Shown here: piece by piece, positions 3-19,599 of the stretch
How the letters are laid out: every line of letters starts with the position of its first letter
Position numbering within the stretch: the first letter of the stretch is position 1
Notes under the pieces: model-generated
What the model saw: the letters and a program-made list of their open reading frames with translations, nothing else
Databases searched by the model: none
What the model was told of the DNA's origin: nothing
Position numbers and translations under genes: made by a program
Assembly (NCBI RefSeq): GCF_010548245.1
Contig: NZ_JAAGLR010000491.1
Location: 1 to 32,093 of the forward strand
Direction: 5' to 3'
DNA length: 32,093 nt
From: Streptomyces sp. SID11385
Lineage (GTDB): Bacteria; Actinomycetota; Actinomycetes; Streptomycetales; Streptomycetaceae

Positions 3-845
3 GCCCTCGCCCATGCCCTCGCGGCCCGCGGCCTCGCCGTGGCCCTGCTCGGCAGGGAACTGGAGACGCTGGAGGCCGTCGCCCGCGAACTGCCCGTGCC
101 GACCTGCTCGCTGGAGGTCGACGTCACCGACGAGCCCGCCCTGCGCGGCGCCGCCGACTGCGTACGGCAACGCCTCGGGCCCGCCTCCGTCGTCGTCGCC
201 AACGCGGGCATCGCCGCGGCGGGCCCCTTCGCGCACACCGCCGCCGCGCTGTGGAACCGCGTCATCGCCGTCAACCTCACGGGCAGCGCCGCCACGGCCC
301 GCGTCTTCCTCCCGCACCTCCTCGCCACGCGCGGCCACTTCCTCCAGATCGCCTCCACGGCCTCCTTCGGCTCCGCGCCCATGATGAGCGCCTACTGCGC
401 CTCGAAGGCGGGCGCGGAGTCCTTCGCGCAGGCGCTGCGCAACGAAGTCGCTCCCGCGGGCGTCACGGTCGGCATCGCCTACCTGCACTGGACCGGCACC
501 GGCATGATCGAGGACATCGACGGGAACCCGGTCCTGCGCGCGCTGCGCGCCCACCAGCCGGCCTTCGCGGGCCGCGTCCACCCGCCCGAGCAGGTCGCCG
601 CCTGGCTCACCCGGAGCATCGTCCGCCGCGCGCCCACCGCCTACGCGCCGCCGTGGCTGCGCTTCCTCCAGCCCCTGCGGCCCGTCTTCCCCCACGCCGT
701 CTCCTACGTGTCGCGCCGCGCCCTCGCCCGCCTGGCACCCGCCGACCTGGTCCGCGAGGCTGGCGTCCTCGGGCCGGGCGGGCGCGCCGACTGGGGCGCC
801 GAGGACCGCAGCCCGGCACCCCCCGTGACGCCCCCGCACACCTGA
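3..845 (+). CDS. Short-chain dehydrogenase/reductase, 5' end cut off by the window
   Basis: The reading frame is open from the first complete codon (position 3), so the start and the usual N-terminal TGxxxGIG nucleotide-binding loop lie outside the window. The visible part begins in the helix after that loop (ALAHALAARGLAVALLGR). It continues with the classical SDR marks: an NAG motif (VVVANAGIAAAG), a Ser-rich strand before the active site (IASTASFGS), and the catalytic pair YxxxK, with Tyr at 393-395 and Lys at 405-407. Classical SDRs oxidise or reduce hydroxyl/keto groups with NAD(P)(H) in the cytoplasm. The substrate cannot be read from sequence. The C-terminal extension rich in Arg and Pro (WLRFLQPLRPVFP onward) is like that of SDRs acting on lipid-like substrates, but that is only a suggestion. 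It ends five bases before the convergent hydrolase gene, leaving no room for a separate terminator. Confidence 0.9.
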   Translation, partial: ALAHALAARGLAVALLGRELETLEAVARELPVPTCSLEVDVTDEPALRGAADCVRQRLGPASVVVANAGIAAAGPFAHTAAALWNRVIAVNLTGSAATARVFLPHLLATRGHFLQIASTASFGSAPMMSAYCASKAGAESFAQALRNEVAPAGVTVGIAYLHWTGTGMIEDIDGNPVLRALRAHQPAFAGRVHPPEQVAAWLTRSIVRRAPTAYAPPWLRFLQPLRPVFPHAVSYVSRRALARLAPADLVREAGVLGPGGRADWGAEDRSPAPPVTPPHT

Positions 846-849
846 CACC

Positions 850-1614
850 TCACGCCCCGGCGTGCTCCCTGGCCCGCGCGACGGCCTCGCCGATGTCGCC
901 CCGGTGAACGGGCCCGTGCCCGGCGAGCAGCGTCCCGGCGCTCACCGTTTCGAGAGCGGCGAGCGAGGCGAGGGTACGGGCCCGGTCGGCGTGGAACATC
1001 CCGGGCAGCAACTGCGGGCCCGACCGTCGCGAGGTGGGGTGGCCGGTCACGAGCGCGTCACCGCTGACGAGCACGCCGTGCTCCGGCAAGTGGTAGGCGC
1101 AGTGTCCGCGCGTGTGCCCCGGCGTGTGCACGGGCACGGGCCGCCCCGGCAGGTCGAGCGCCCCGGCGACGGGGAAGGCCCGCGGCCCGGCGACCGGCAC
1201 CGCGCCCAGCCCTCCCGAGCGCACCGCGCCCACCGCCCAGGGCAGCACCCCGGGCCGCCAGGCCCGCGCGAGGATCTTCCCGAGCGTCACCTGATGCAGG
1301 AACTCCCTGCGCGCGTGCGGCACTTCCTCCTCGTGCATGAGGATGTCGGTCCCGTACGCGGTGCGCAGGTGCTCGGCCGCCCCGATGTGGTCGCCGTGCG
1401 CGTGCGTGATCAGGACCGCGCGTACGGCCTCCGGCGCGACGCCGAGCCTCGCGAGCGAGGCGAGCACGGCGTCCCGGTCGCCGGGATACCCCGAGTCGAT
1501 GAGCGTCGCCGCGTCCCCGTCCTTGACGATCACCCAGTTCGTATCGCTGCCGTGGACCAGGTGGACCCCCGCCGCGACCTCGATGACGTCCTCGTCCCGC
1601 AACCCTGCCGTCAT
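850..1614 (-). CDS. MBL-fold (metallo-beta-lactamase superfamily) hydrolase
   Basis: This 254-residue protein has all the metal ligands of the glyoxalase-II-like metallo-beta-lactamase fold. They are HxHxDH (H71, H73, D75, H76 in LITHAHGDHIG), H167 in HTPGHTRGH, D186 in VSGDAL and H233 in AGHGP. Such enzymes bind two metal ions (usually zinc) and hydrolyse thioesters, lactones, phosphoesters or similar bonds. Which one applies here cannot be told. There is no signal peptide, so it is probably cytoplasmic. I chose the ATG at 1614 because an AGGAAAAGAG stretch precedes it and the family N-terminus begins near there; an in-frame ATG at 1641 would add nine residues. The open frame upstream of that is antisense to the lipoprotein gene and is not real. 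It is divergent from the lipoprotein gene and convergent with the SDR. Confidence 0.9.
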   Translation of the reverse strand: MTAGLRDEDVIEVAAGVHLVHGSDTNWVIVKDGDAATLIDSGYPGDRDAVLASLARLGVAPEAVRAVLITHAHGDHIGAAEHLRTAYGTDILMHEEEVPHARREFLHQVTLGKILARAWRPGVLPWAVGAVRSGGLGAVPVAGPRAFPVAGALDLPGRPVPVHTPGHTRGHCAYHLPEHGVLVSGDALVTGHPTSRRSGPQLLPGMFHADRARTLASLAALETVSAGTLLAGHGPVHRGDIGEAVARAREHAGA

Positions 1615-1746
1615 TGCACGCTCTTTTCCTGTCGATGACATCCGCTCAACGGAACGGCGTCGTCCCCGTGGCGACCTCGCGCCCCGCCGCGTTCCTTCCT
1701 GCGGCATACTGCCCGCCGAGACGATCACAGGGGAAGCGGGGGAGTC

Positions 1747-3069
1747 GTGGGGCGCACGAGGGCGGGACTGACGGCGGTGGCGCTGTGCGGTGGCCTCCTG
1801 CTCACGGGGTGCGGCGGTGACGCGAAGCCGGCGGGCCCGATACCCCTCGCCACCGGTCATCCGCACCGCCCCGCAAACCCCGCCGACCTCAACGGCGACG
1901 GGTACGCCGACGCGTTCCTCGGGGACGGGGAGCACAAGGGCGTCGTGCTGTGGGGCGCGAAGGACGGACTCGACGCGGGGCGTACGAGCCGCCTCGCGGT
2001 CTCGGGGGAACCGGTGCGCGCCGACCTGGACGCCGACGGTTACACCGACCTCGTCGCGGCGACCCCGCGCGGCACCACGGTGCTCCTGCGCGGCGGACCG
2101 CGCGGCCTCGCCGCGCCGCGCACCCTGCGCACCCCCGCGGGCTTCCTGCCCCGCGCGGCGGGGGACTTCGACGGCGACGGCACCACCGACCTCTTCGACG
2201 GCGGCCAGGGCGGTACGGGGGACACGGACTCCCTGCCCGAGGACCCGCAGCGGCCCGCCCGCGTCCTCCAGGGCCCCTTCACCGAGGACGGTGCCCCCGC
2301 CCGTACCCGTACGCTCGACGCCGGCCAGCACGGCTACAGCAGCCCGGCCACCGTGGCCGCCGCCGACTTCGACGGCGACGGCGCGAGCGACCTCGTCCTC
2401 GGCTACGCGTACGACGCCGAGGACGACGACAATGCGCCCCAGGACCTCGCCCCCGTCGCGTACTACAAGGGCAGCCCCGAAGGCCCGCGCCGCGACCGCA
2501 CGCGCGAGAAGGCCCTGCTCGCCGCCGCGGGCCCCGGGGCGGGCGGCTTCGCCTCGCTCCCGGGCGACACGGACGGCGACGCCGCCGCCGACCTCCTCGT
2601 CCCCGGCTCCGCGCCCGGGGGCCACGGCCGCGTCACCGTCCTCCGCGGGGGCCCCGGCGGCCCGGGCACGGGTGGCGAGCCGGACGTGTACGAGGGCGAG
2701 CAGGGTTCCTTCGGCTCCTCGGTCCTCACCGGCCGCATCGACGGCGACGCACGGGGCGATCTCGTCGTCGGCGCGGCCGGCGCCTACCGCCACGACGACT
2801 GGATCACCGTCCACGCCACCCGCGCCGGCACCCAGCGGCTCACCGCTCTCGACGACGGCATGCCGGGCCGCCCCAACGGCGCCCACTGGAACGAGTTCGT
2901 CCCCCTCGCCCTGCTCGACGCGGACGGCGACCACCACGCCGACCTCCTCGCCCACGCGCCCCGCCACGACGGCGGCAAGGGCGTCTACGTCCTCCTGCGT
3001 GGCACGGACAAGGGTCTCTCCTTCCGCGGCGTACGCTCCCTCGCCCCCGCGAGCCTCGGACTGGGCTGA
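1747..3069 (+). CDS. Lipoprotein with seven FG-GAP/VCBS-like repeats (beta-propeller)
   Basis: The 440-residue product starts with a GTG after a purine-rich stretch and has a lipoprotein signal ending in the lipobox LTGC, so Cys22 would be lipidated and the protein anchored outside the membrane. The rest carries seven calcium-loop repeats of the form D-x-D/N-x-D-G-x-x-D-hydrophobic. They begin near residues 47 (DLNGDGYAD), 93 (DLDADGYTD), 140 (DFDGDGTTD), 207 (DFDGDGASD), 274 (DTDGDAAAD), 331 (IDGDARGD) and 390 (LDADGDHHAD). Seven such repeats fit a seven-bladed integrin-alpha-like propeller. This class is common on Streptomyces surfaces and mostly uncharacterised; binding to a ligand or carbohydrate is the usual guess. 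No catalytic residues are evident. The fifth and sixth loops are degenerate (DGDAAAD, DGDARGD). Confidence 0.88.
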   Translation: MGRTRAGLTAVALCGGLLLTGCGGDAKPAGPIPLATGHPHRPANPADLNGDGYADAFLGDGEHKGVVLWGAKDGLDAGRTSRLAVSGEPVRADLDADGYTDLVAATPRGTTVLLRGGPRGLAAPRTLRTPAGFLPRAAGDFDGDGTTDLFDGGQGGTGDTDSLPEDPQRPARVLQGPFTEDGAPARTRTLDAGQHGYSSPATVAAADFDGDGASDLVLGYAYDAEDDDNAPQDLAPVAYYKGSPEGPRRDRTREKALLAAAGPGAGGFASLPGDTDGDAAADLLVPGSAPGGHGRVTVLRGGPGGPGTGGEPDVYEGEQGSFGSSVLTGRIDGDARGDLVVGAAGAYRHDDWITVHATRAGTQRLTALDDGMPGRPNGAHWNEFVPLALLDADGDHHADLLAHAPRHDGGKGVYVLLRGTDKGLSFRGVRSLAPASLGLG

Positions 3070-3115
3070 CCCCGGACCGGGCCGAGAACCGCTCGACTGT
3101 GTCCTGCCGAGGCGG

Positions 3116-3142
3116 TTTACAGCGCTCTTCCAACGATGTAAA
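3116..3142 (+). promoter_or_regulatory. Inverted hexamers with AGCGCT core upstream of the GH2 gene
   Basis: TTTACA (3116-3121) and TGTAAA (3137-3142) form a perfect inverted pair 15 bases apart. An AGCGCT palindrome at 3121-3126 resembles the core of the GAGAGCGCTCTC site found before the GH76 gene in this window. The segment is unusually AT-rich for this DNA and lies about 155 bases before the GH2 start. It could be a promoter (TTTACA as a -35-like box) or an operator; the sequence does not decide. Confidence 0.35.
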
Positions 3143-3172
3143 AAGTCAAGGGAGCCTCAAGTCGCGTTGTTT

Positions 3173-3193
3173 TCCCGCCGGTTGCCCGGCGGG
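3173..3193. terminator. Hairpin between the lipoprotein and GH2 genes
   Basis: CCCGCCGGG (3173-3181) pairs perfectly with CCCGGCGGG (3185-3193) around a three-base TTG loop. It lies 104 bases after the lipoprotein stop and 103 before the GH2 start, so it may end upstream transcription or be a structure in the GH2 leader. No T-run follows on the + strand; TTTT precedes it. Confidence 0.4.
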
Positions 3194-3295
3194 TCGCGAG
3201 GAGAGGCCCGCCTCGCACCGTGCTCCAGCTTGTCATGTACGTGATAAACGCTTGGCCGGCGGACCCCCGCCCGGCGTACCCGAAGGAGCCGCACC

Positions 3296-5662
3296 ATGCC
3301 CCCCGCCCGGACCTCCGCACCCCCGCCCCGCACCCGCAGACCCTCCCCGCGCGCCCTGATCGGCGCCCTGCTCGCCGTCCTCGCCCTGTGCGCGGGCGCC
3401 CTCACCGCCGCCGCCCCCGCCCAGGCCGCCGCGAGCGCCTGGGCCCCCAAGCCCTCACCCCTCACCACGCCGTGGACCAACCAGGTCCCCACCGACAAAC
3501 CGCTCCCCGAGTACCCCCGCCCCCAGCTCACCCGCCCCGACTGGTCGAACCTCAACGGCATCTGGGACTTCGCCGTGACCTCCGCGAACGCGGGCCAGCC
3601 CGCGCAGTGGAGCGAGCAGATCCGGGTGCCCTTCGTCGCCGAGTCCGCGCTCTCCGGCATCAAGCGCAAGGTCACCGCCGACGACAAGCTCTGGTACCGC
3701 CGCACCTTCACCGTCCCCGCGGGCTGGGACGGCAGGAACGTCGTCCTCAACTTCGGCGCGAGCGACTGGCGCACCACCGTGTGGGTCAACGGGCAGCAGG
3801 CGGGAGCCGTGCACAGCGGCGGCTACGACGCCTTCTCGTACGACATCACCGCGCTCCTGAACCGGGGCGGCAGCAACACCGTCGTCGTCTCCGTCGTCGA
3901 CCCGACCCAGTCCGGCGGCCAGGCGATCGGCAAGCAGCGCTCGGGCGACGTCGAGCCGCACTCGGGCGGCGGCATCTTCTACACCTCCGCCTCGGGCATC
4001 TGGCAGACCGTCTGGCTCGAACCCGTCGCCCCCGCCCACATCACCCGCCTCGACATGACCCCCGACCTCAACAGCAGCACGCTGAAGACCACGGTCCGCG
4101 CCGCCGGGGCGAACGGCCGCCAGGTCCGCGTCACCGTCTCCACGGGCGGACGCACCGTCGGCACCGCCACCGGGACCGTCGGCACCGCGCTCAGCGTGCC
4201 CGTACCCTCGCCGCACCTGTGGACCCCCGAGGACCCCTTCCTCTACGACGTCCGCGCCGAACTCCTCGACGGCACCGCCGTCACCGACACGGCCGGCAGC
4301 TACACCGGGATGCGCAGCATCGGCCTCGCCCGCGTCGACGGCGTCCAGCGCCCCGTCCTCAACGGGAAGTTCGTCTTCCAGACCGGCACCCTCGACCAGG
4401 GCTACTGGCCCGACGGCATCTACACCGCGCCCACCGACGACGCCCTCAAGTACGACCTCCAGAAGCACAAGGACCTCGGCTTCAACATGGTCCGCAAGCA
4501 CATCAAGGTCGAGCCCCAGCGCTGGTTCTACTGGGCCGACAAGCTCGGCCTCCTCGTGTGGCAGGACATGCCCGCGATGGACCTGCGCACCCCCGACAGC
4601 GCCGCCCGCACGCAGTGGGAGGCCGAGTACCACGAGATCATCGACGAGCACCGCAGCTCGCCGTCGGTCGTCATGTGGGTCGACGAGAACGAGGGCTGGG
4701 GGCAGTACGACCAGGCCCGCATCGCGAACGACGTCAAGGCGTACGACCCGAGCCGCCTCGTGGACAACATGAGCGGCATCAATTGCTGCGGCGCCGTCGA
4801 CGGCGGCAACGGCGACGTCATCGACCACCACAACTACGTCGGCCCGGGCGACACGAAACCGAGCGCGAGCCGCGCCGCCGTCCTCGGCGAGTTCGGCGGC
4901 CTCGGACTGCGCGTCGCGGGCCACGAGTGGTTCCCCGGCGGCGGCTTCAGCTACGAGGACCAGGGCGACGCCGCCCACCTGAACAACCGCTTCATCGGCC
5001 TCATCGACGCCCTGCGCCTCCAGCAGATGCCCGCCGGCCTCTCGGCCTCCGTCTACACCGAGATCACCGACGTCGAGAACGAGGCGAACGGCCTGCTCAC
5101 CTACGACCGCCAGGTCGTCAAGGTGGACGAGAACCGCGTCCGCGCCGCCAACCAGGCCCTCATCGCCGCCTCGCGCGGCACCCCGCCGCGCGCCACCCTC
5201 CCGACCGGCGGCTACAAGTCCCTGCGCGTCACGACGCCCGGCTTCACCGACCGCTACCTGCGCCACTACGACGGGCTCGCCAACACCGAGCCCGTCACCG
5301 CGGCCAGCCCCGCGGTCCTGAAGGCGGACGCCACCTGGAAGATCGTCCCCGGCCTCTCCGACTCCGCGTGCTACTCCTTCGAGTCCCGCAACTACCCCGG
5401 CGAGTACCTGCGTCACCGCGAGTTCCGCGTCCACCGCGAGGCGGGCGACGGCTCCGCGCTCTTCAAGGCCGACGCCACGTGGTGCGCGGTCCCCGGCGAG
5501 GGCGGCGTCCGCCTCATGGCGTCGAACTTCCCCGGCCAGTACCTGCGCCACTTCAACTCCGAGGTGTGGCTCGCCACGCCGGGCGGCACCCACGCCTACG
5601 ACACACCGGACCGCTTCACCGAGGACACCACGTGGGCGGTGGAGAACCCGTGGACCCCGTGA
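3296..5662 (+). CDS. Secreted GH2 family glycosidase with C-terminal AbfB (CBM42-like) domain
   Basis: This 788-residue exported enzyme has an Arg-rich N-terminus, a hydrophobic core (residues 20-40) and a likely signal cleavage near AQA at 42-44. The sugar-binding jelly roll (LTRPDWSNLNGIWDF, then WYRRTFTVP and DWRTTVWVNG) is followed by an Ig-like domain and a TIM barrel, as in GH2 beta-galactosidase/glucuronidase-type enzymes. The acid/base is the Glu of the NE pair (E466 in WVDENEGWG) and the nucleophile is probably E532 in LGEFGG. Residues about 639-788 form an arabinofuranose-binding AbfB beta-trefoil, with repeated signatures YLRHYDGL, EYLRHREFRVH and YLRHFNSEVW. This suggests action on arabinose-decorated plant polysaccharide, with the exact linkage unknown. 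The ATG at 3296 follows a GAAGGAGC ribosome site. It is probably monocistronic, ended by a strong hairpin. Confidence 0.92.
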   Translation: MPPARTSAPPPRTRRPSPRALIGALLAVLALCAGALTAAAPAQAAASAWAPKPSPLTTPWTNQVPTDKPLPEYPRPQLTRPDWSNLNGIWDFAVTSANAGQPAQWSEQIRVPFVAESALSGIKRKVTADDKLWYRRTFTVPAGWDGRNVVLNFGASDWRTTVWVNGQQAGAVHSGGYDAFSYDITALLNRGGSNTVVVSVVDPTQSGGQAIGKQRSGDVEPHSGGGIFYTSASGIWQTVWLEPVAPAHITRLDMTPDLNSSTLKTTVRAAGANGRQVRVTVSTGGRTVGTATGTVGTALSVPVPSPHLWTPEDPFLYDVRAELLDGTAVTDTAGSYTGMRSIGLARVDGVQRPVLNGKFVFQTGTLDQGYWPDGIYTAPTDDALKYDLQKHKDLGFNMVRKHIKVEPQRWFYWADKLGLLVWQDMPAMDLRTPDSAARTQWEAEYHEIIDEHRSSPSVVMWVDENEGWGQYDQARIANDVKAYDPSRLVDNMSGINCCGAVDGGNGDVIDHHNYVGPGDTKPSASRAAVLGEFGGLGLRVAGHEWFPGGGFSYEDQGDAAHLNNRFIGLIDALRLQQMPAGLSASVYTEITDVENEANGLLTYDRQVVKVDENRVRAANQALIAASRGTPPRATLPTGGYKSLRVTTPGFTDRYLRHYDGLANTEPVTAASPAVLKADATWKIVPGLSDSACYSFESRNYPGEYLRHREFRVHREAGDGSALFKADATWCAVPGEGGVRLMASNFPGQYLRHFNSEVWLATPGGTHAYDTPDRFTEDTTWAVENPWTP

Positions 5663-14177: not shown

Positions 14178-14183
14178 GTGGGG

Positions 14184-14441
14184 GTGATGAGTTCGCTGAG
14201 TGATCGCCTGCGAGCGGCCGTCGTGGCGGTCATGTTCCAGACCGGGGAGTCGCAACGAGACCTCGCGACGGTCCTGGGGATCTCGCAGGGACAAGTGAGC
14301 CGACGTCAGTCCGGCAGCGCAGCATGGTCGCTGGACCAGTGCGACGTCCTCGCCGCGCACTGGGGCGTCGACGCCCTCGATCTCCTCGCGGGCCCCACGC
14401 GCGCCTGCGAGGCGCTGCCCGAACGGAACGCGGTCCGGTGA
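14184..14441 (+). CDS. Small Xre-type helix-turn-helix regulator
   Basis: The product has 85 residues from the GTG at 14184, or 84 from the ATG at 14187. It contains a helix-turn-helix of the Xre/Cro kind: SQRDLATVLGISQGQVSRRQ, followed by WSLDQCDVLAAHWGVDALDLL. This matches the small regulators found on Streptomyces plasmids and next to replication genes. No ribosome site is visible, but a -10 box is placed for a leaderless mRNA starting exactly at 14184. The stop codon overlaps the next gene's start (GTGA at 14438-14441), so the two are translationally coupled. It probably represses the operon and thereby sets the amount of the downstream telomere-like proteins (inference from position and fold). 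Confidence 0.75.
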   Translation: MMSSLSDRLRAAVVAVMFQTGESQRDLATVLGISQGQVSRRQSGSAAWSLDQCDVLAAHWGVDALDLLAGPTRACEALPERNAVR

Positions 14442-16066
14442 ACGACGGCTTCGACGCGATCGACGACCTCCTCGCCTCCGTCGGCCGGGAGCGCCCCCTC
14501 CCTCCTGCGGCCGAGCGCCGCCGCCTGCGCGAGGAACTCGCGCTCTCCCGCGCCCAGCTCGCCGCCGTGCTCGGTGTGAGCGCCTCGACGATCGCGGGCT
14601 GGGAACGCGGCAGCGACCCCTCCGGCGAAGTACGGGAGAAATACGCGTACTTCCTCGACAGCGCCCGCACCAAGCTCACCCCCGCCCCTCCCGCCGAGGG
14701 ACCGGCCGATACCGCAGCCCCCGCCGCTTCCGCGGCGAGCGCCCCCGTCCCGGAGGCCGAGGACGCAGGCGCGGACGAGGCGGATGACATGGGCGACACG
14801 GACGAGGCGGGCGACGCCGACGACGTGGACGTCCTCGCGGTCGCCGAACCTTGCGTCCTGTGCGGGGAGCCCGCCCGTCACAGGGTCGCGGGGTTCGCCC
14901 AGCACCTCGACCCCGCCGAGTGCCACCCCCTGCCCGTCCCCGAGACCCCGGCGCCCGAGCCCCCGCGTCCCTCGCCCCGCCCGGCACCCCCGCACACCCG
15001 GACCGCGCCTCCCCCGCCCCGCCAGGCCCGACGTGACACCCCCCGCACCGCCCGGCCTGACACACCCCGCACCGTACGGGTGGCGGCGGCCGGTCGCCGC
15101 GCGCGGACCGAGGACGAGCCCGGCTTCATCGCCGCCCGCGTCGCCGCGGCGGTCGCCGCGCACGACGGGGACATCGACGCCGCGACGGCCGCGCTCGTGA
15201 AACGAGCCATCCCGGACGCGATGGAACTCCTCGACCGCACCCGCCTGGGCGGCCGCTACGACGTCGTCGCACACCCCGCGATGCCGGACGTCCTCCACAA
15301 ACAATCCGCGCGCGGCCCCGACCAGATCTGGGAAGCCCGCCCGAAGTGGACCCGCCCCACCCTTCCCGAAGGGCGGCACGAGGTCACGGCGCTCGACATC
15401 AACGGCGCCTACCTCTCCGCCCTCAAGACCCACCTCCCGCTTGGCCAGCTCGAACACTCCACCGGCTTCGCGCACGACCGCCGCCGCGCCGGGGTCCACC
15501 TGATCACCCCGCCCGCCTGGCACCACGAGGCCGAGCTGCCCAACCCCCTCGGAGCGCGCGACGAGCCCGGCCCCCTGTGGGTGACCGAGCCGACCCTGCG
15601 CCTCCTCCAGCGCCTCGCGGGACCGAAGTACGGGCTGTGCGAGGCCCCCGAGATCCACGAGTCCTACACCTCCGGCTCCACGGAGAACCTCCTGGAGAAA
15701 TTCCGCACCGAGCTGAAGGACGCCCGCGACCGCGCCCTCGCCGAGGACGACGACGTGACGCTGGAGTACGTCAAGGCGATGTACTCGAAGTTCGTCTCGA
15801 CGATGGGCACGTCGAACTACAACCGCGAGCTGTACCGTCCGGACTGGATGCACCTCATCCGCGCCCAGGCGTTCTCGAACCTGTGGATGAAAGCCTTCAA
15901 GGCGTACGAGAACGGCGTGACCGTGGTCCGGGCGATGGGCACGGACGAACTCCACGTCATCGGTGACTGGCGCGCCGTCTTCCCCGAGGGCCGCGCGGTC
16001 ACCGAGGTCAAGGTCAAGGACGTCTACACCGTCGGCACCGACGAGCAGGAGGACCCCGATGCCTGA
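14438..16066 (+). CDS. Tap-like telomere-associated protein with family-B polymerase-like motifs
   Basis: The 542-residue product starts at a GTG within the GTGA overlap. Residues 5-75 closely resemble, from memory, the N-terminus of Streptomyces Tap: FDAIDDLLAS, then PLPPAAERRRLREELALS, and a helix-turn-helix ending ASTIAGWERG. A Pro/Ala/Asp-rich linker (80-215) holds a CVLC...H...CH cluster (C139, C142, H156, C162, H163) that could bind zinc. The rest, about 225-542, carries protein-primed family-B polymerase-like motifs: A (D320 in ALDINGAYLSAL), B-like (YSKFVSTMG at 449-457) and a degenerate C (GTDELHVIG at 501-509, where phi29 has DTDS). Tap binds the single-stranded telomere end and recruits terminal protein, and has been reported to have primase activity. 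Here the role is inferred by homology and gene order. The downstream gene overlaps by eight bases. Confidence 0.7.
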   Translation: MNDGFDAIDDLLASVGRERPLPPAAERRRLREELALSRAQLAAVLGVSASTIAGWERGSDPSGEVREKYAYFLDSARTKLTPAPPAEGPADTAAPAASAASAPVPEAEDAGADEADDMGDTDEAGDADDVDVLAVAEPCVLCGEPARHRVAGFAQHLDPAECHPLPVPETPAPEPPRPSPRPAPPHTRTAPPPPRQARRDTPRTARPDTPRTVRVAAAGRRARTEDEPGFIAARVAAAVAAHDGDIDAATAALVKRAIPDAMELLDRTRLGGRYDVVAHPAMPDVLHKQSARGPDQIWEARPKWTRPTLPEGRHEVTALDINGAYLSALKTHLPLGQLEHSTGFAHDRRRAGVHLITPPAWHHEAELPNPLGARDEPGPLWVTEPTLRLLQRLAGPKYGLCEAPEIHESYTSGSTENLLEKFRTELKDARDRALAEDDDVTLEYVKAMYSKFVSTMGTSNYNRELYRPDWMHLIRAQAFSNLWMKAFKAYENGVTVVRAMGTDELHVIGDWRAVFPEGRAVTEVKVKDVYTVGTDEQEDPDA

Positions 16067-16634
16067 GCGCACCATCGAGTTCGGCGTGTACGGCGCCCAG
16101 GGCGTCAAGGGGCACGAACTGGTCGCCCGCCGCCTGGACGGCCTCGCGGGTTTCATCGTCTCCCCCGTCACCACTCGCCGCGGCCTGCTCGCCCGGCTGC
16201 GCTACCTCACGAGCAGCCGCCGCCAGCTCACCGCCGCCCGCGAGGCGGGCCTCACCCTCAGCACCCGCACGATCAAGGCCCAGCTCGCCGGTACCCGCCG
16301 CCCCTCGGCCCGCACCCTCCGCCAGATCGAGACCGCCTACCGGACGGTCCGCCGCCGGAACGTCGCCCGCCACCTCCTGGCCCGCCTGAACCGGGAAGGC
16401 CGGGGCACCCGCGTCGAGTTCCACCCGGTCAACCAGTCCGCTGTGGACCGCCCCCGGCAGCGCGTCGTCGAATACCGCACGCTGAACGTCCGCAAATGGG
16501 ACCACATCATCGCCGCCTGGCAGGCCGGCGACGACACAGCCCTGGACAACACCTGGATCGACGAGGTCGTGATCGACCTCGGCTCCCAGTGGGGCCAGTA
16601 CGAGTACGTCACCAACATCGGCTTCGCGGCCTGA
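16059..16634 (+). CDS. Candidate terminal protein (Tpg-position, helix-turn-helix protein)
   Basis: The 191-residue product starts at the ATG at 16059, inside the end of the Tap-like gene, behind a strong AGGAGG site. Its size is close to that of Tpg (about 184 residues) and its gene follows the Tap-like gene, as tpg follows tap. The layout is also similar: a basic region with a helix-turn-helix (RYLTSSRRQLTAAREAG, then LSTRTIKAQLAG), RRPSARTLRQIETAY, a run of arginines (RTVRRRN), then a compact domain ending WIDEVVIDLGSQWG and YEYVTNIGF. In Tpg the protein primes DNA synthesis at the chromosome end and stays covalently bound. I cannot align the C-terminal half reliably to Tpg, so this is an inference from context, length and fold order. 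A regulator or plasmid DNA-binding protein is the alternative. Confidence 0.6.
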   Translation: MPERTIEFGVYGAQGVKGHELVARRLDGLAGFIVSPVTTRRGLLARLRYLTSSRRQLTAAREAGLTLSTRTIKAQLAGTRRPSARTLRQIETAYRTVRRRNVARHLLARLNREGRGTRVEFHPVNQSAVDRPRQRVVEYRTLNVRKWDHIIAAWQAGDDTALDNTWIDEVVIDLGSQWGQYEYVTNIGFAA

Positions 16635-16749: not shown

Positions 16750-19347
16750 TCAGGCGGGAAGGGTCCACTGCTGCGCCGCGGTGGCGTTGCAGTCGAAGAT
16801 CTGGAGCTGGGTGCCGTCCTGGGCACTGGATTCGGGGATGTCCAGGCAGCGGCCGGACTGGGGATTCACGAGTGCCTTGGTGGAGGCGTTGTAGGTCCAC
16901 TTCTGGTCGCCGCCGCCGTCGCAGGTCCAGAGGGTCGCCAGGCTGTGGATGCCGGTGCCGTCGAGTTGCACGCATTTGCCGATGCCCCGCAGCGTGCCTT
17001 CGGGCGTCAGGGCGAACTCCTGCGCGGCGGAGCCGTTGCAGGACCACGACTGGACCCTCGTCCCGTCGGCCGTGGAACCGTGGTCGACGTCCACGCACTT
17101 CCCGGCGATGCCCGACCGTACCGGGCCGGTGGGCACCGGCGCAGGGCCCGGGGGCTTGGAGCCGCCGTTGCCGCCGTACGACGGGGGCGCGGAGGAGGCA
17201 GCGGTGGCCCAGCCGGTGTTCGCCGAGGTGCCGAGGTCGAGTGTGAGGGTGCCGCCGTCGGTGACGAACGACGGGGGCAGGTAGGCGTTGTTCCAGTTCG
17301 CGCCGTTGAGCGTGGCGCTCTGGACGTAGGGGGCGTCCGTCGCGGCCTTGGGGGCGTTGACGACCATCTTCTTGCCGTTGCCGAGCGTGACCGTGACGTT
17401 GGTGAACAGCGGGCTGCCGAGCGCCATGTCCGCCGTGCCCGGGGTCTGCGGGTACATGCCCATCGCCGACCAGACGTACCAGGCGCTCATGGTGCCCAGG
17501 TCGTCGTTGCCCACGCCCCAGTGGGCGGGGTCGTTGGGCCACAGCTCGTTCTGCACCTGGCGGACGACGCGCTGAGTCTTCCAGGGCTGCCCGATGTAGT
17601 CGTACTCCCAGGGGAGTTCGATGGAGGGCTCGTTGCGCAGGTCCGCGTGGGAGCCGCCGGCCCCGCGGATGTCGGACAGGACGCTGTCCAGGTACGCGGC
17701 CAGCTTCGCGTCGCCGCCCATGGCGGTGGCCAGCCCGCGGACGTTGTGCGGCACCGCGCCCGTGTACTGCCAGGACGTGCCCTCGACGAACTGGTCGCTG
17801 CTCGTGGGATCGAAACCGGTGCGCCAGGAGCCGTTCGCGAGCTTCGGCCGCATGAAACCGGTGCCGGGATCGAAGACATTGCGCCAGTCCTGCGCCCGGT
17901 TGGCGAACTGGTCCCGCGTGGTGGTGTCCCCGAGGGCGGCCGCGAACGCGGATGTCGCGAAGTCCTGGGCGCTGTACTCCAGCAGCGTCGCCACCGAACC
18001 GTAGAAGTCGCGGGGGTAGGTGCCGTCCGAGGGCAGGTACCCGTACTTCGTCTGGAGGTCCAGGCCCATCCTGATGGGGTTGGACGTGGTGCCCTGCGCG
18101 ACCATCGCCTTCTTCGCCGCCCCGGTGTCGAAGCTCCGCGCGCCGAAGGCGTAGTAGTCCGCGATGATTGCCGGGCCCGGATCGCCGTTCATCACCTGGG
18201 TCTCGGCCGAGTTCAGCGACCACTTGGGCAGGAAGCCGCCCTGCGCGTAGTCGTTCACCAGGGACTGCGCGCTGTCGCTCGCCTGCTGGGGCGCGACCAG
18301 CGCGTGGAGCTGCGCCTGGCTCCGGTAGATGTCCCAGCCGGAATAGGTGCCGTACTGGGCCTTCTGGCCGCCGCCGACGGTGTGGACCTTCCTGTCGAAG
18401 CCCACGTACTTCCCGTCGGTGTCGCTGAGCACGTTGGGGTGGAGCAGCGAGTGGTAGAGGGCCGTGTAGAAGACCTTCTGCTGGTCGCCGGTCCCTCCCG
18501 TGACGGCGACCTTGCCGAGGAGGTCGTTCCAGGAGGCGTGGGTGGCGTTCCGGGTGGCGTCGAAGTCCCAGCCCGGATTCTCGGCCGCCCGGTTGGCGCG
18601 GGCCCCGTCGACCGACACGTAGGACAGGCCGACCTTCGCCTGGACCACGCGGTTGCCCGTGGTGTCGAAGGTGACCGAACTCCCGCCGTCGAAGGTGCCG
18701 TTGCCGCTCATCGGCCGGTCGAAGACCATGTCGAAGTGGACGGTGTAGGTCGGGCTGGACGCGCAGAAGAAGCCGTTGGTGAGCGAGCCGCTGACCTCGG
18801 TGCTGCTCACGCGGTCGAAGTGGATGTCGCTGCCCTTGCCGGAGCCCGTCTTGAAGATCAGGTTGGCCTGGGCCGTCGCGGGGAACGTGAAGCGCGCCAT
18901 CCCGGAGCGCTGCGTGGCCGTCAGCTCGGTATTGACGCCGTTGTCGAGCTTGACGGCGTACGCGCCCGCGCTCGCGGACTCGTTGCCGTGCGAGAAACCG
19001 GCCGTCGCCTTGCCGTCGACGGCACCCGTGGTCGGCAGGACGGGGATGTCCCCGAGGGCACCGCAGCCCGGGCCGGAGAGGTGGTTGAGGCTGAAGCCTG
19101 TGACAACGTTGTCGGAGTAGGCGTAGAAGCCTCCCGGCGGGCGGGACGGGGTGTCGGGACTCCACTGCACCCTCCCGAACGGCGCGTCGGCGCCGGGGAA
19201 GGTGTTGCCCTCGTTCGAGGTGCCGAGGAGAGGGTTGACGAGCGAGGCGGGATCGGACAGGGGCGCCGCCGCGTGGGCGGCGGAGACCGGTGCGCTGAGC
19301 CCCAAGAGCATGAGGCAGAACGTGAGGGGGATGCGCCATCGTTTCAC
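16750..19347 (-). CDS. Secreted GH92 alpha-mannosidase with ricin-type lectin domain
   Basis: From the GTG at 19347 (behind CTGGAG) the precursor has 865 residues with a signal peptide (KRWRIPLTFCLMLLGLSAP, cleavage near AHAA). The GH92 module shows VNPLLGTSNEGNTFPGADAPFG at its start, in pieces PLLGT and GNTFPGA, then FSLNHLSGPGCGALGDIPVLP. Late markers are ELPWEYDYIGQPW and GNDDLGTMSAWYVWSAMG, in which the acids D615 and D616 serve as general-base residues in this calcium-dependent family. GH92 enzymes are exo-mannosidases acting on alpha-1,2/1,3/1,4/1,6 bonds. The last about 135 residues are a ricin-type beta-trefoil (CBM13) with three repeats ending QEF, QKW and QQW. A longer in-frame start exists but crosses the promoter. 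Paired divergently with a GH76 mannanase, it fits breakdown of fungal or yeast mannan. Confidence 0.93.
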   Translation of the reverse strand: MKRWRIPLTFCLMLLGLSAPVSAAHAAAPLSDPASLVNPLLGTSNEGNTFPGADAPFGRVQWSPDTPSRPPGGFYAYSDNVVTGFSLNHLSGPGCGALGDIPVLPTTGAVDGKATAGFSHGNESASAGAYAVKLDNGVNTELTATQRSGMARFTFPATAQANLIFKTGSGKGSDIHFDRVSSTEVSGSLTNGFFCASSPTYTVHFDMVFDRPMSGNGTFDGGSSVTFDTTGNRVVQAKVGLSYVSVDGARANRAAENPGWDFDATRNATHASWNDLLGKVAVTGGTGDQQKVFYTALYHSLLHPNVLSDTDGKYVGFDRKVHTVGGGQKAQYGTYSGWDIYRSQAQLHALVAPQQASDSAQSLVNDYAQGGFLPKWSLNSAETQVMNGDPGPAIIADYYAFGARSFDTGAAKKAMVAQGTTSNPIRMGLDLQTKYGYLPSDGTYPRDFYGSVATLLEYSAQDFATSAFAAALGDTTTRDQFANRAQDWRNVFDPGTGFMRPKLANGSWRTGFDPTSSDQFVEGTSWQYTGAVPHNVRGLATAMGGDAKLAAYLDSVLSDIRGAGGSHADLRNEPSIELPWEYDYIGQPWKTQRVVRQVQNELWPNDPAHWGVGNDDLGTMSAWYVWSAMGMYPQTPGTADMALGSPLFTNVTVTLGNGKKMVVNAPKAATDAPYVQSATLNGANWNNAYLPPSFVTDGGTLTLDLGTSANTGWATAASSAPPSYGGNGGSKPPGPAPVPTGPVRSGIAGKCVDVDHGSTADGTRVQSWSCNGSAAQEFALTPEGTLRGIGKCVQLDGTGIHSLATLWTCDGGGDQKWTYNASTKALVNPQSGRCLDIPESSAQDGTQLQIFDCNATAAQQWTLPA

Positions 19348-19494
19348 GGGTGCGGCTCCAGGGGTCACGAGGCAGGCGGCGTACGGCCACGGGCGGACGA
19401 ACGGTGGGCGGACACGGCAGGCGCGGAGCGCCCGATCCCCGCCCACGCGCACCCAACCGACGTACGAGAGGGGGGATTTCACGGAAGCAAGCAC

Positions 19495-19523
19495 ATAAGA
19501 CCGCCGTCGCGGGAGCGTGTCAA
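19495..19523 (-). promoter_or_regulatory. Promoter for the GH92 gene
   Basis: On the minus strand a perfect -35 box TTGACA (19523 to 19518) is followed after 17 bases by TCTTAT (19500 to 19495). Transcription would start near 19488 and give a leader of about 140 bases before the GTG at 19347. Confidence 0.65.
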
Positions 19524-19556
19524 CAAGCGCGACAGCGGCACGCACCGCTCGACTCA

Positions 19557-19599
19557 TTGACGTGCCCATGGCGCGCCGTTAATTTCAGAGAGCGCTCTC
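19557..19599 (+). promoter_or_regulatory. GH76 promoter with LacI-type operator on the transcription start
   Basis: TTGACG (19557-19562), 17 bases and TAATTT (19580-19585) form a good promoter with a start near 19592. The perfect palindrome GAGAGCGCTCTC (19588-19599) sits exactly there. This sequence has the GAGCGCTC core of known Streptomyces LacI-family sites (for example CebR), so sugar-responsive repression of the mannanase gene is likely. The regulator gene is not in the window. Confidence 0.75.

Follow-up and report, generated by a model that had tools for sequence, protein, structure and literature searches.

Our data indicate that a three-gene operon in the genome of Streptomyces sp. 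SID11385 is very probably a protein-primed end-patching system for non-archetypal Streptomyces telomeres of the Sg2247 class. The operon lies on contig NZ_JAAGLR010000491.1, which was analyzed at its full length of 32,093 bases (the window) and belongs to a 7.5-Mb draft assembly in 1,202 contigs. Gene 1 encodes a small Xre-type helix-turn-helix (HTH) protein, gene 2 a larger protein that begins like the telomere protein Tap, and gene 3 a candidate terminal protein (Table 1). The original prediction described three genes packed with GTGA and eight-base overlaps and proposed that they might include a non-archetypal Tap/Tpg-like telomere pair. The three open reading frames (ORFs) were confirmed in place, genes 1 and 2 sharing bases 14438-14441 (4 bp) and genes 2 and 3 eight bases, and the proposed function is supported because the module co-occurs in a type-specific manner with Sg2247-type telomeres. 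The trio is a real, conserved operon rather than a chance arrangement, since the C-terminal domain of gene 2 is found at E <= 1e-3 in 164 of 392 Streptomyces genomes and a terminal-protein-like gene adjoins it in 85 of 103 examined loci. Our assignment draws on this operon, on its co-occurrence with telomeres, on its frequent proximity to replicon ends, on its absence from the archetypal-telomere plasmids listed, and on a predicted polymerase fold with conserved motifs.

The telomeres in question are known from linear plasmids and chromosomes. The list of Sg2247-type telomeres includes pSCAT and pSGZL, telomeres of this type cap the chromosomes of S. rimosus ATCC 10970 and S. albidoflavus J1074, and the proteins that patch them were called elusive in 2021 (PMC8743542). 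We find that pSCAT carries one variant of the gene 2-gene 3 pair (group A) and pSGZL another (group B). The genus sample held one genome per species (G000-G391) and was queried with the C-terminal 310 residues of gene 2; 140 genomes matched at E <= 1e-60 and are counted as module genomes, the 24 with weak matches (E > 1e-60) being left out. By best hit, 85 of the 140 belong to group A (mostly 68-82% identity; a 78%-identical fragment in G332 is included), 43 to group B (mostly 56-67%) and 12 to neither.

The telomeres of pSCAT (type A) and pSGZL (type B) and the archetypal telomere were used as probes. The pSCAT probe matched 36 of the 392 genomes at E <= 1e-7, several matches being internal to contigs, and the pSGZL probe matched 13 at E <= 1e-6. 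The module is present in 33 of the 36 type-A-telomere genomes, against 140 of 392 overall (p 3e-13; all p values are indicative, given shared species ancestry and near-duplicate plasmid records). This association is specific to the subtype: genomes with the type-A telomere carry group A in 28 of 36 cases (p 4e-14) and group B in four (p 0.6), and those with the type-B telomere carry group B in 13 of 13 (p 5e-14) and group A in none. Telomere and module lie on one contig in G147:C96, G161:C32 and G168:C16 for the pSCAT probe and in G113:C59 and G349:C69 for the pSGZL probe.

Plasmid records show the same pairing. The pSCAT probe matched 44 records (E <= 0.01), 32 of them no more than 300 bp from an end and the others 0.7-20 kb further inward; the pSGZL probe matched 35 records and the archetypal probe 25. 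The module counts on them are lower bounds, as they draw on 106 of the roughly 131 records with the polymerase gene and on 40 of the 153 with the terminal-protein gene. A polymerase or terminal-protein gene is carried by at least 32 of the 44 type-A records (at least 27 of the 32 with an end-located match), and a group-B polymerase by at least 23 of the 35 type-B records, all 23 being at least 72% identical to the pSGZL protein. Among the matches listed, the module is on none of the 25 archetypal-telomere records; one of these, NBC_01483, also has a type-A telomere match and a 40% partial match to the domain.

Canonical Tap, present in 275 of the 392 genomes at E <= 1e-60, is anti-correlated with the module (both in 53 genomes, module only in 87, Tap only in 222, neither in 30; p 4e-25), and it is found in 10 of the 36 type-A-telomere genomes and in four of the 13 with the type-B telomere. 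The 30 genomes without either at this threshold may be circular or use further systems.

We also defined a telomere box from fetched ends, as GACGC, a short spacer and a stem of 5 or more pairs whose loop is TAC. The box is found at 13 of 55 contig starts from module genomes and at none of 25 others, where the box contigs were picked after the pSCAT genome search and two of the 55 (G147:C96, G161:C32) for a known telomere match. In 1.27 Mb of other fetched sequence the box occurs seven times; four of these are re-fetched ends, and the other three lie no more than 40 bases from a contig end (L197, L211, L234). On many of the fetched ends no telomere can be recognized, probably through loss in assembly. 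On one contig (L085, G259:C1; near 1670-1931) telomere sequence is found both ways round, some 1.8 kb in from the start; this resembles an assembly artifact in which the sequence folds back past a hairpin end.

Many complete replicons carry the module near their ends, several at both (G109, G151, G354, G065, G259, G308, G199); on the G065 chromosome the terminal-protein gene occupies positions 600-1187 and the polymerase gene 1191-2546, and the match is repeated at the opposite end. The domain is found at E <= 1e-20 on 129 plasmid records, 119 from Streptomyces, 6 from Kitasatospora and 2 each from Streptantibioticus and Embleya. Conservation in organisms with only circular replicons, which the original prediction named as evidence against itself, did not emerge from a class-wide sample: 19 of 394 genomes and 3 of 137 genera match, 17 of the 19 being Streptomyces (15 at E <= 1e-56, two near 1e-16) and the two others marginal (E about 5e-4).

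The second line of evidence concerns the C-terminal domain of gene 2, which is predicted to have the fold of a phi29-like protein-primed DNA polymerase. The AlphaFold model of gene 2 was built with an alignment of 77 homologues (A2), all taken from the window and from named genome contigs; its mean pLDDT (predicted local distance difference test) is 78.7, with low-confidence linkers at about residues 90-130 and 165-230 and weaker stretches near 271-300 and 451-470. A Foldseek search of the PDB returned seven matches at E <= 0.001, all of them phi29 DNA polymerase (E 3.3e-8 to 2.2e-6; best entry 1xhx), and other family-B polymerases rank after it. With VIA-align, residues 249-534 of the model superpose on residues 176-493 of 2ex3_A, the phi29 polymerase in complex with its terminal protein (Z 16.4, root-mean-square deviation 3.9, 256 aligned residues), and the best entry outside phi29 reaches Z 9.7. 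In a library of viral models many of the top matches are protein-primed polymerases, among them the enzymes of His1, GA-1, the Streptomyces tectivirus WheeHeim and a Bifidobacterium phage. The option that gene 2 is a repurposed regulator, raised in the original prediction, is not supported, given the predicted polymerase fold of the C-terminal part.

The residues conserved in this domain point in the same direction. All 77 homologues keep D320, N322, A324, Y325 and L326 in motif A, where D320 is a candidate metal ligand; Y444, K446, M448, Y449, K451, T455 and G457 in the motif B region; and T502, D503, E504, L505 and H506 in motif C. By eye, motif A of gene 2 (ALDINGAYLSALKTHLPLGQL) pairs with FDVNSLYPAQMYSRLLPYGEP of phi29 polymerase, and motif C (MGTDELHVIG) with YCDTDSIHLTG. 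The likeness to the phi29 pair thus includes the predicted fold, the positions of motifs A and C and a partner terminal-protein gene. The differences are that the N-terminal part of phi29 polymerase, an exonuclease, is unmatched, the HTH region of gene 2 standing in its place, that motif C reads GTDE, and that the match between sequence profiles is not significant.

Several observations weigh against our assignment. The Foldseek template-modelling scores (TM-scores) to phi29 polymerase are just 0.33-0.39 over the whole gene 2 model, and motif C has GTDE for DTDS, the first aspartate being replaced by glycine in 74 of 77 homologues. Aligned to eleven phage polymerases, the A2 profile does not reach significance (P 0.06, against 0.19 for the reversed control), with motifs A and C in the same register in this alignment. 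Searches for relatives of the polymerase domain ended likewise: the C-terminal 300 residues or so have no significant Pfam or NCBIfam match; PHROGs at E <= 10 and the comparison of the A2 profile with sequences of solved structures gave nothing significant for the domain, chiefly HTH families and proteins; tblastn against phage records at E <= 10 left it without a match, and of 12 pattern matches in viral_contigs none was confirmed. Regarding the telomeres, the p values overstate independence because the genomes share ancestry and the plasmid records include near-duplicates. Three telomere-positive genomes (G240, G370, G382) lack the module at E <= 1e-60, and 107 module genomes lack a type-A telomere match at E <= 1e-7. 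The thirteen pSCAT telomere matches between 1e-7 and 1e-5 show no association with it (4 of 13, p 0.78). Five telomere plasmids were searched whole: pPZG101, NBC_01520, S. anulatus NBC_01080 and pSHJG1 have no module, and NBC_01483 has only the 40% partial match; such plasmids might be supplied in trans from another replicon. In 18 of the 103 loci no terminal-protein gene adjoins the polymerase gene. Finally, neither telomere type was identified in the draft of the host itself: the pSCAT probe has four matches of 25-41 bp, three of them internal and one (37 bp) 33 bases from the end of contig C721 on the unexpected strand; the pSGZL probe has none; the pattern GACGC-N6/7-CTACG occurs at 98 sites (82 for the reversed pattern), none palindromic with a stem of 5 among the 41 of 98 inspected; and the window holds no telomere box.

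The N-terminal part of gene 2 ties the module to archetypal Tap. Residues 5-169 match the NCBIfam model NF047542 (telomere_Tap) at E 2e-18, with 66.4 bits against the 600-bit cut-off for full-length Tap, so that the Tap-type HTH is present and a full-length Tap is not. The original prediction had stated that the middle protein begins like Tap, and this agrees with the hhalign comparison with 23 canonical Tap proteins, in which residues 1-87 align at P 1e-21 with 37% identity over 84 columns. Similarity outside the HTH, whose absence would have counted against the original prediction, is weakly indicated between residues 278-498 and Tap 387-643 (P 1.7e-4 over 213 columns; reversed control P 0.06), at a probability of only 49.8%. 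Near-invariant cysteines and a histidine between the two domains possibly form a zinc site. The module and the archetypal Tap-Tpg system share the two-gene order, the Tap-type N-terminal HTH, a small HTH second protein and perhaps a weak profile similarity in the C-terminal half of Tap. They differ in that the module goes with another telomere class and has an extra Xre gene, in the bit score given above, and in that gene 3 matches Tpg in its HTH part alone. The further check for a canonical tap-tpg pair in the host was answered for Tap: a genome-wide NF047542 search gave three matches, none above the cut-off, of which the best is the gene 2 locus itself. The terminal-protein gene and the polymerase domain have a single match each in the host.

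Gene 3 has the size and position of Tpg (about 185 residues, encoded downstream of a telomere-associated gene). Compared by hhalign with 23 canonical Tpg proteins, it aligns at residues 23-96 alone (P 2.9e-4; reversed 0.67). The earlier description of the third protein as Tpg-like in size, position and HTH, with a C-terminus that could not be matched, therefore stands, the Tpg match being confined to the HTH part. Searches of Pfam and NCBIfam place gene 3 in no family, the single Pfam row being at chance level (E 0.15). With a pLDDT of 92 its model is confident, and the structure matches listed are chiefly HTH folds at residues 31-102, with no listed PDB match beyond that region (best Z 5.4). 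The nucleotidylation site of Tpg is T114 (PMC3572947). This residue is invariant in the 23 canonical sequences and has no clear counterpart in the gene 3 family. Position 127 (S127) is serine or threonine in 55 of 61 family members; T117 is threonine in 61 of 61, but arginine in one fused protein; and positions 35, 49, 53, 94, 176 and 181 bear a hydroxyl in 61 of 61 and also in at least 44 of 45 members of a second set. Our guess would be that S/T176 accepts the nucleotide.

Taken as an end-patching system, the operon could work as follows. Bidirectional replication leaves a 3' overhang, able to form hairpins whose loops are GGA and GTA, and these hairpins would be bound by the HTH part of gene 2 together with the small Xre protein. 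The phi29-like domain would hold the 191-residue protein, and the first nucleotide would be joined to a serine, threonine or tyrosine hydroxyl of the latter. The polymerase domain would next synthesize a short stretch of primer DNA, with the terminal protein left capping the 5' end. The same steps may operate at the host's own ends.

One could argue that the module is simply the named GtpB-GtpA pair of S. griseus IFO 13350 or a member of its family. This is the largest doubt on novelty and we consider it quite possible, though somewhat short of an even chance; in that case, novelty would be confined to the polymerase fold and the connection with Sg2247-type telomeres. Like the candidate pair of the module, GtpB-GtpA is a non-archetypal terminal-protein pair on a Streptomyces chromosome (PMC7205883; compared by description only), and strains in which the GtpB-GtpA operon is the sole one identified have chromosomal telomeres with GGA loops (PMC7205883), while module-associated telomeres likewise read as GGA loops on the 3' strand and S. 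griseus NCTC13033 (L186) has a group-B module. However, S. griseus 13350 is described as having a different telomere class (PMC8743542), and pRLB1-9.1 is reported to lack a Tap or Tpg homologue (PMC7205883); its sister pRLB1-9.2 carries a group-A pair.

Two other explanations question the function itself. The genes could be an accessory Tap-Tpg-like system that assists some other end-patching system of the host without replacing it; canonical Tap does occur in 53 of the 140 module genomes and the host telomere was not found, but the other 87 have no canonical Tap at E <= 1e-60, nor does the host above the cut-off, and we regard this as very improbable. It is likewise very improbable that the genes are mere cargo near the ends of linear replicons, such as a regulator or a toxin-antitoxin-like unit, associated with telomeres by linkage. 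Many copies are indeed located terminally, where linked genes move jointly, and all three proteins have HTH domains; however, each telomere subtype is associated with one protein subgroup and not with the other, the module is anti-correlated with canonical Tap, and a polymerase fold with conserved motif residues is predicted. End patching of Sg2247-type telomeres is thus the explanation we prefer, and the operon is a specific candidate for the elusive proteins of these telomeres and the best candidate yet for the copying of one class of ends on Streptomyces chromosomes and plasmids. In the literature searched (including PMC11260486, PMC11097637 and PMC13152386, but no preprints and few subscription papers) the pair is not linked to Sg2247-type telomeres.

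A wider notion is that Tap-class proteins, canonical Tap included, are phi29-like protein-primed polymerases whose N-terminal exonuclease was swapped for exchangeable DNA-handling modules, namely the Tap HTH, a fused Xre or a DnaB-like helicase. We regard it as evenly balanced. Streptomyces genomes are described as encoding no family-B DNA polymerase, and Tap and Tac as holding no polymerase motif, yet both add deoxynucleotides to terminal proteins (PMC4513846); this reaction would be accounted for if a Tap-like protein had a phi29-like fold, and bacterial telomere maintenance would then be linked to the protein-primed replication of phages. It weighs against the wider notion that the canonical Tap profile is not similar to phi29-type polymerases (P 0.57). 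If the notion is true, Streptomyces linear replicons are end-patched by a captured polymerase of a virus or mobile element with a swappable telomere reader. No family-B fold in Tap is reported in the literature searched, with the coverage given above. By description, the Tac-Tpc pair of SCP1 is similar in that its telomere-associated protein deoxynucleotidylates the terminal protein without an added polymerase (PMC4513846), and differs in serving another telomere class. In S. albidoflavus J1074 the Tap-domain protein XNR_5804 lies beside a DNA-binding pseudogene, and an unidentified pair is assumed (PMC3937824).

The surroundings of the polymerase gene vary over the 103 loci, in which at least two contigs are counted twice (L135/L191, L146/L242). 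A Tap-type HTH polymerase stands with a terminal protein in 41 loci, with a terminal protein and a separate xre gene in 31, and alone in six; 12 loci have xre and no terminal-protein gene next door, nine have xre fused to the polymerase plus a terminal protein (one fusion at only 44 bits), and four have a terminal protein and no recognized N-terminal domain. A separate xre homologue lies upstream in 43 loci. Gene 1 is a separate upstream gene in many group-A loci and an N-terminal polymerase fusion in a group-B sub-lineage, all nine fusions coming from 20 chosen group-B-like loci. The suggestion that the Xre gene provides copy-level control was abandoned because such fusions exist.

A distant set (31% identity; L298, L299, L300) encodes proteins of about 860 residues in which a DnaB-like domain is joined to the polymerase region. 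In L298 this protein occupies 796-3361 and a downstream gene 3357-3933, and in this locus, the one analyzed with Pfam, Phd/YefM-like and DnaB_C domains are recognized; L298 and L300 have a terminal-protein-like gene for 192 residues downstream. These proteins possibly serve another telomere class, pRL2-like by description; one of the candidate telomere proteins of pRL2 is described as similar to Tap and a helicase (PMC8743542). On the linear plasmid pRLB1-9.2 a full dnaB helicase gene (L006:3442-4848) lies directly upstream of the polymerase/terminal-protein pair.

A split of the polymerase and terminal-protein genes over sibling plasmids was ruled out in both strains checked (NBC_00053, NBC_00376). 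The polymerase plasmid has its own terminal-protein-sized gene directly downstream in each, so the gene on the sibling plasmid (NZ_CP108263, 167087-167662; NZ_CP107962, 286012-286587) is an additional lone copy, and such copies recall the lone tpg genes described in PMC3572947.

Table 1. Features of the operon in the window, with the basis of each assignment
Feature	Position	Strand	Basis
Gene 1, small Xre/HTH protein, 84 residues	14187..14441	+	ORF calling (ATG start; an alternative GTG start at 14178 gives 87 residues); HTH families
Gene 2, candidate Tap-like telomere polymerase, 542 residues	14438..16066	+	ORF (GTG start), profile and model comparisons
Tap-type HTH domain, residues 1-87	14438..14698	+	hhalign to canonical Tap; NF047542
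C139-x2-C142 ... H156 ... C162, residues 136-162	14843..14923	+	near-invariant columns in the 77-sequence alignment; strands in the model
Predicted phi29-type (family B) polymerase-fold domain, residues 226-535	15113..16042	+	Foldseek, VIA-align and viral-library matches
Motif A, residues 317-338 (TALDINGAYLSALKTHLPLGQL)	15386..15451	+	conserved columns
Motif B region, residues 444-457 (YVKAMYSKFVSTMG)	15767..15808	+	conserved columns; model helix 439-456
Motif C, residues 501-506 (GTDELH), beta-hairpin turn	15938..15955	+	conserved columns; strands 495-500 and 504-508
Gene 3, candidate terminal protein, 191 residues	16059..16634	+	ORF (ATG start); HTH part similar to Tpg, P 2.9e-4

Beyond the operon, a convergent ORF of 939 residues (16750-19569, minus strand) encodes what looks, judging by its sequence, like a secreted glycoside hydrolase that ends in a ricin-type lectin part.

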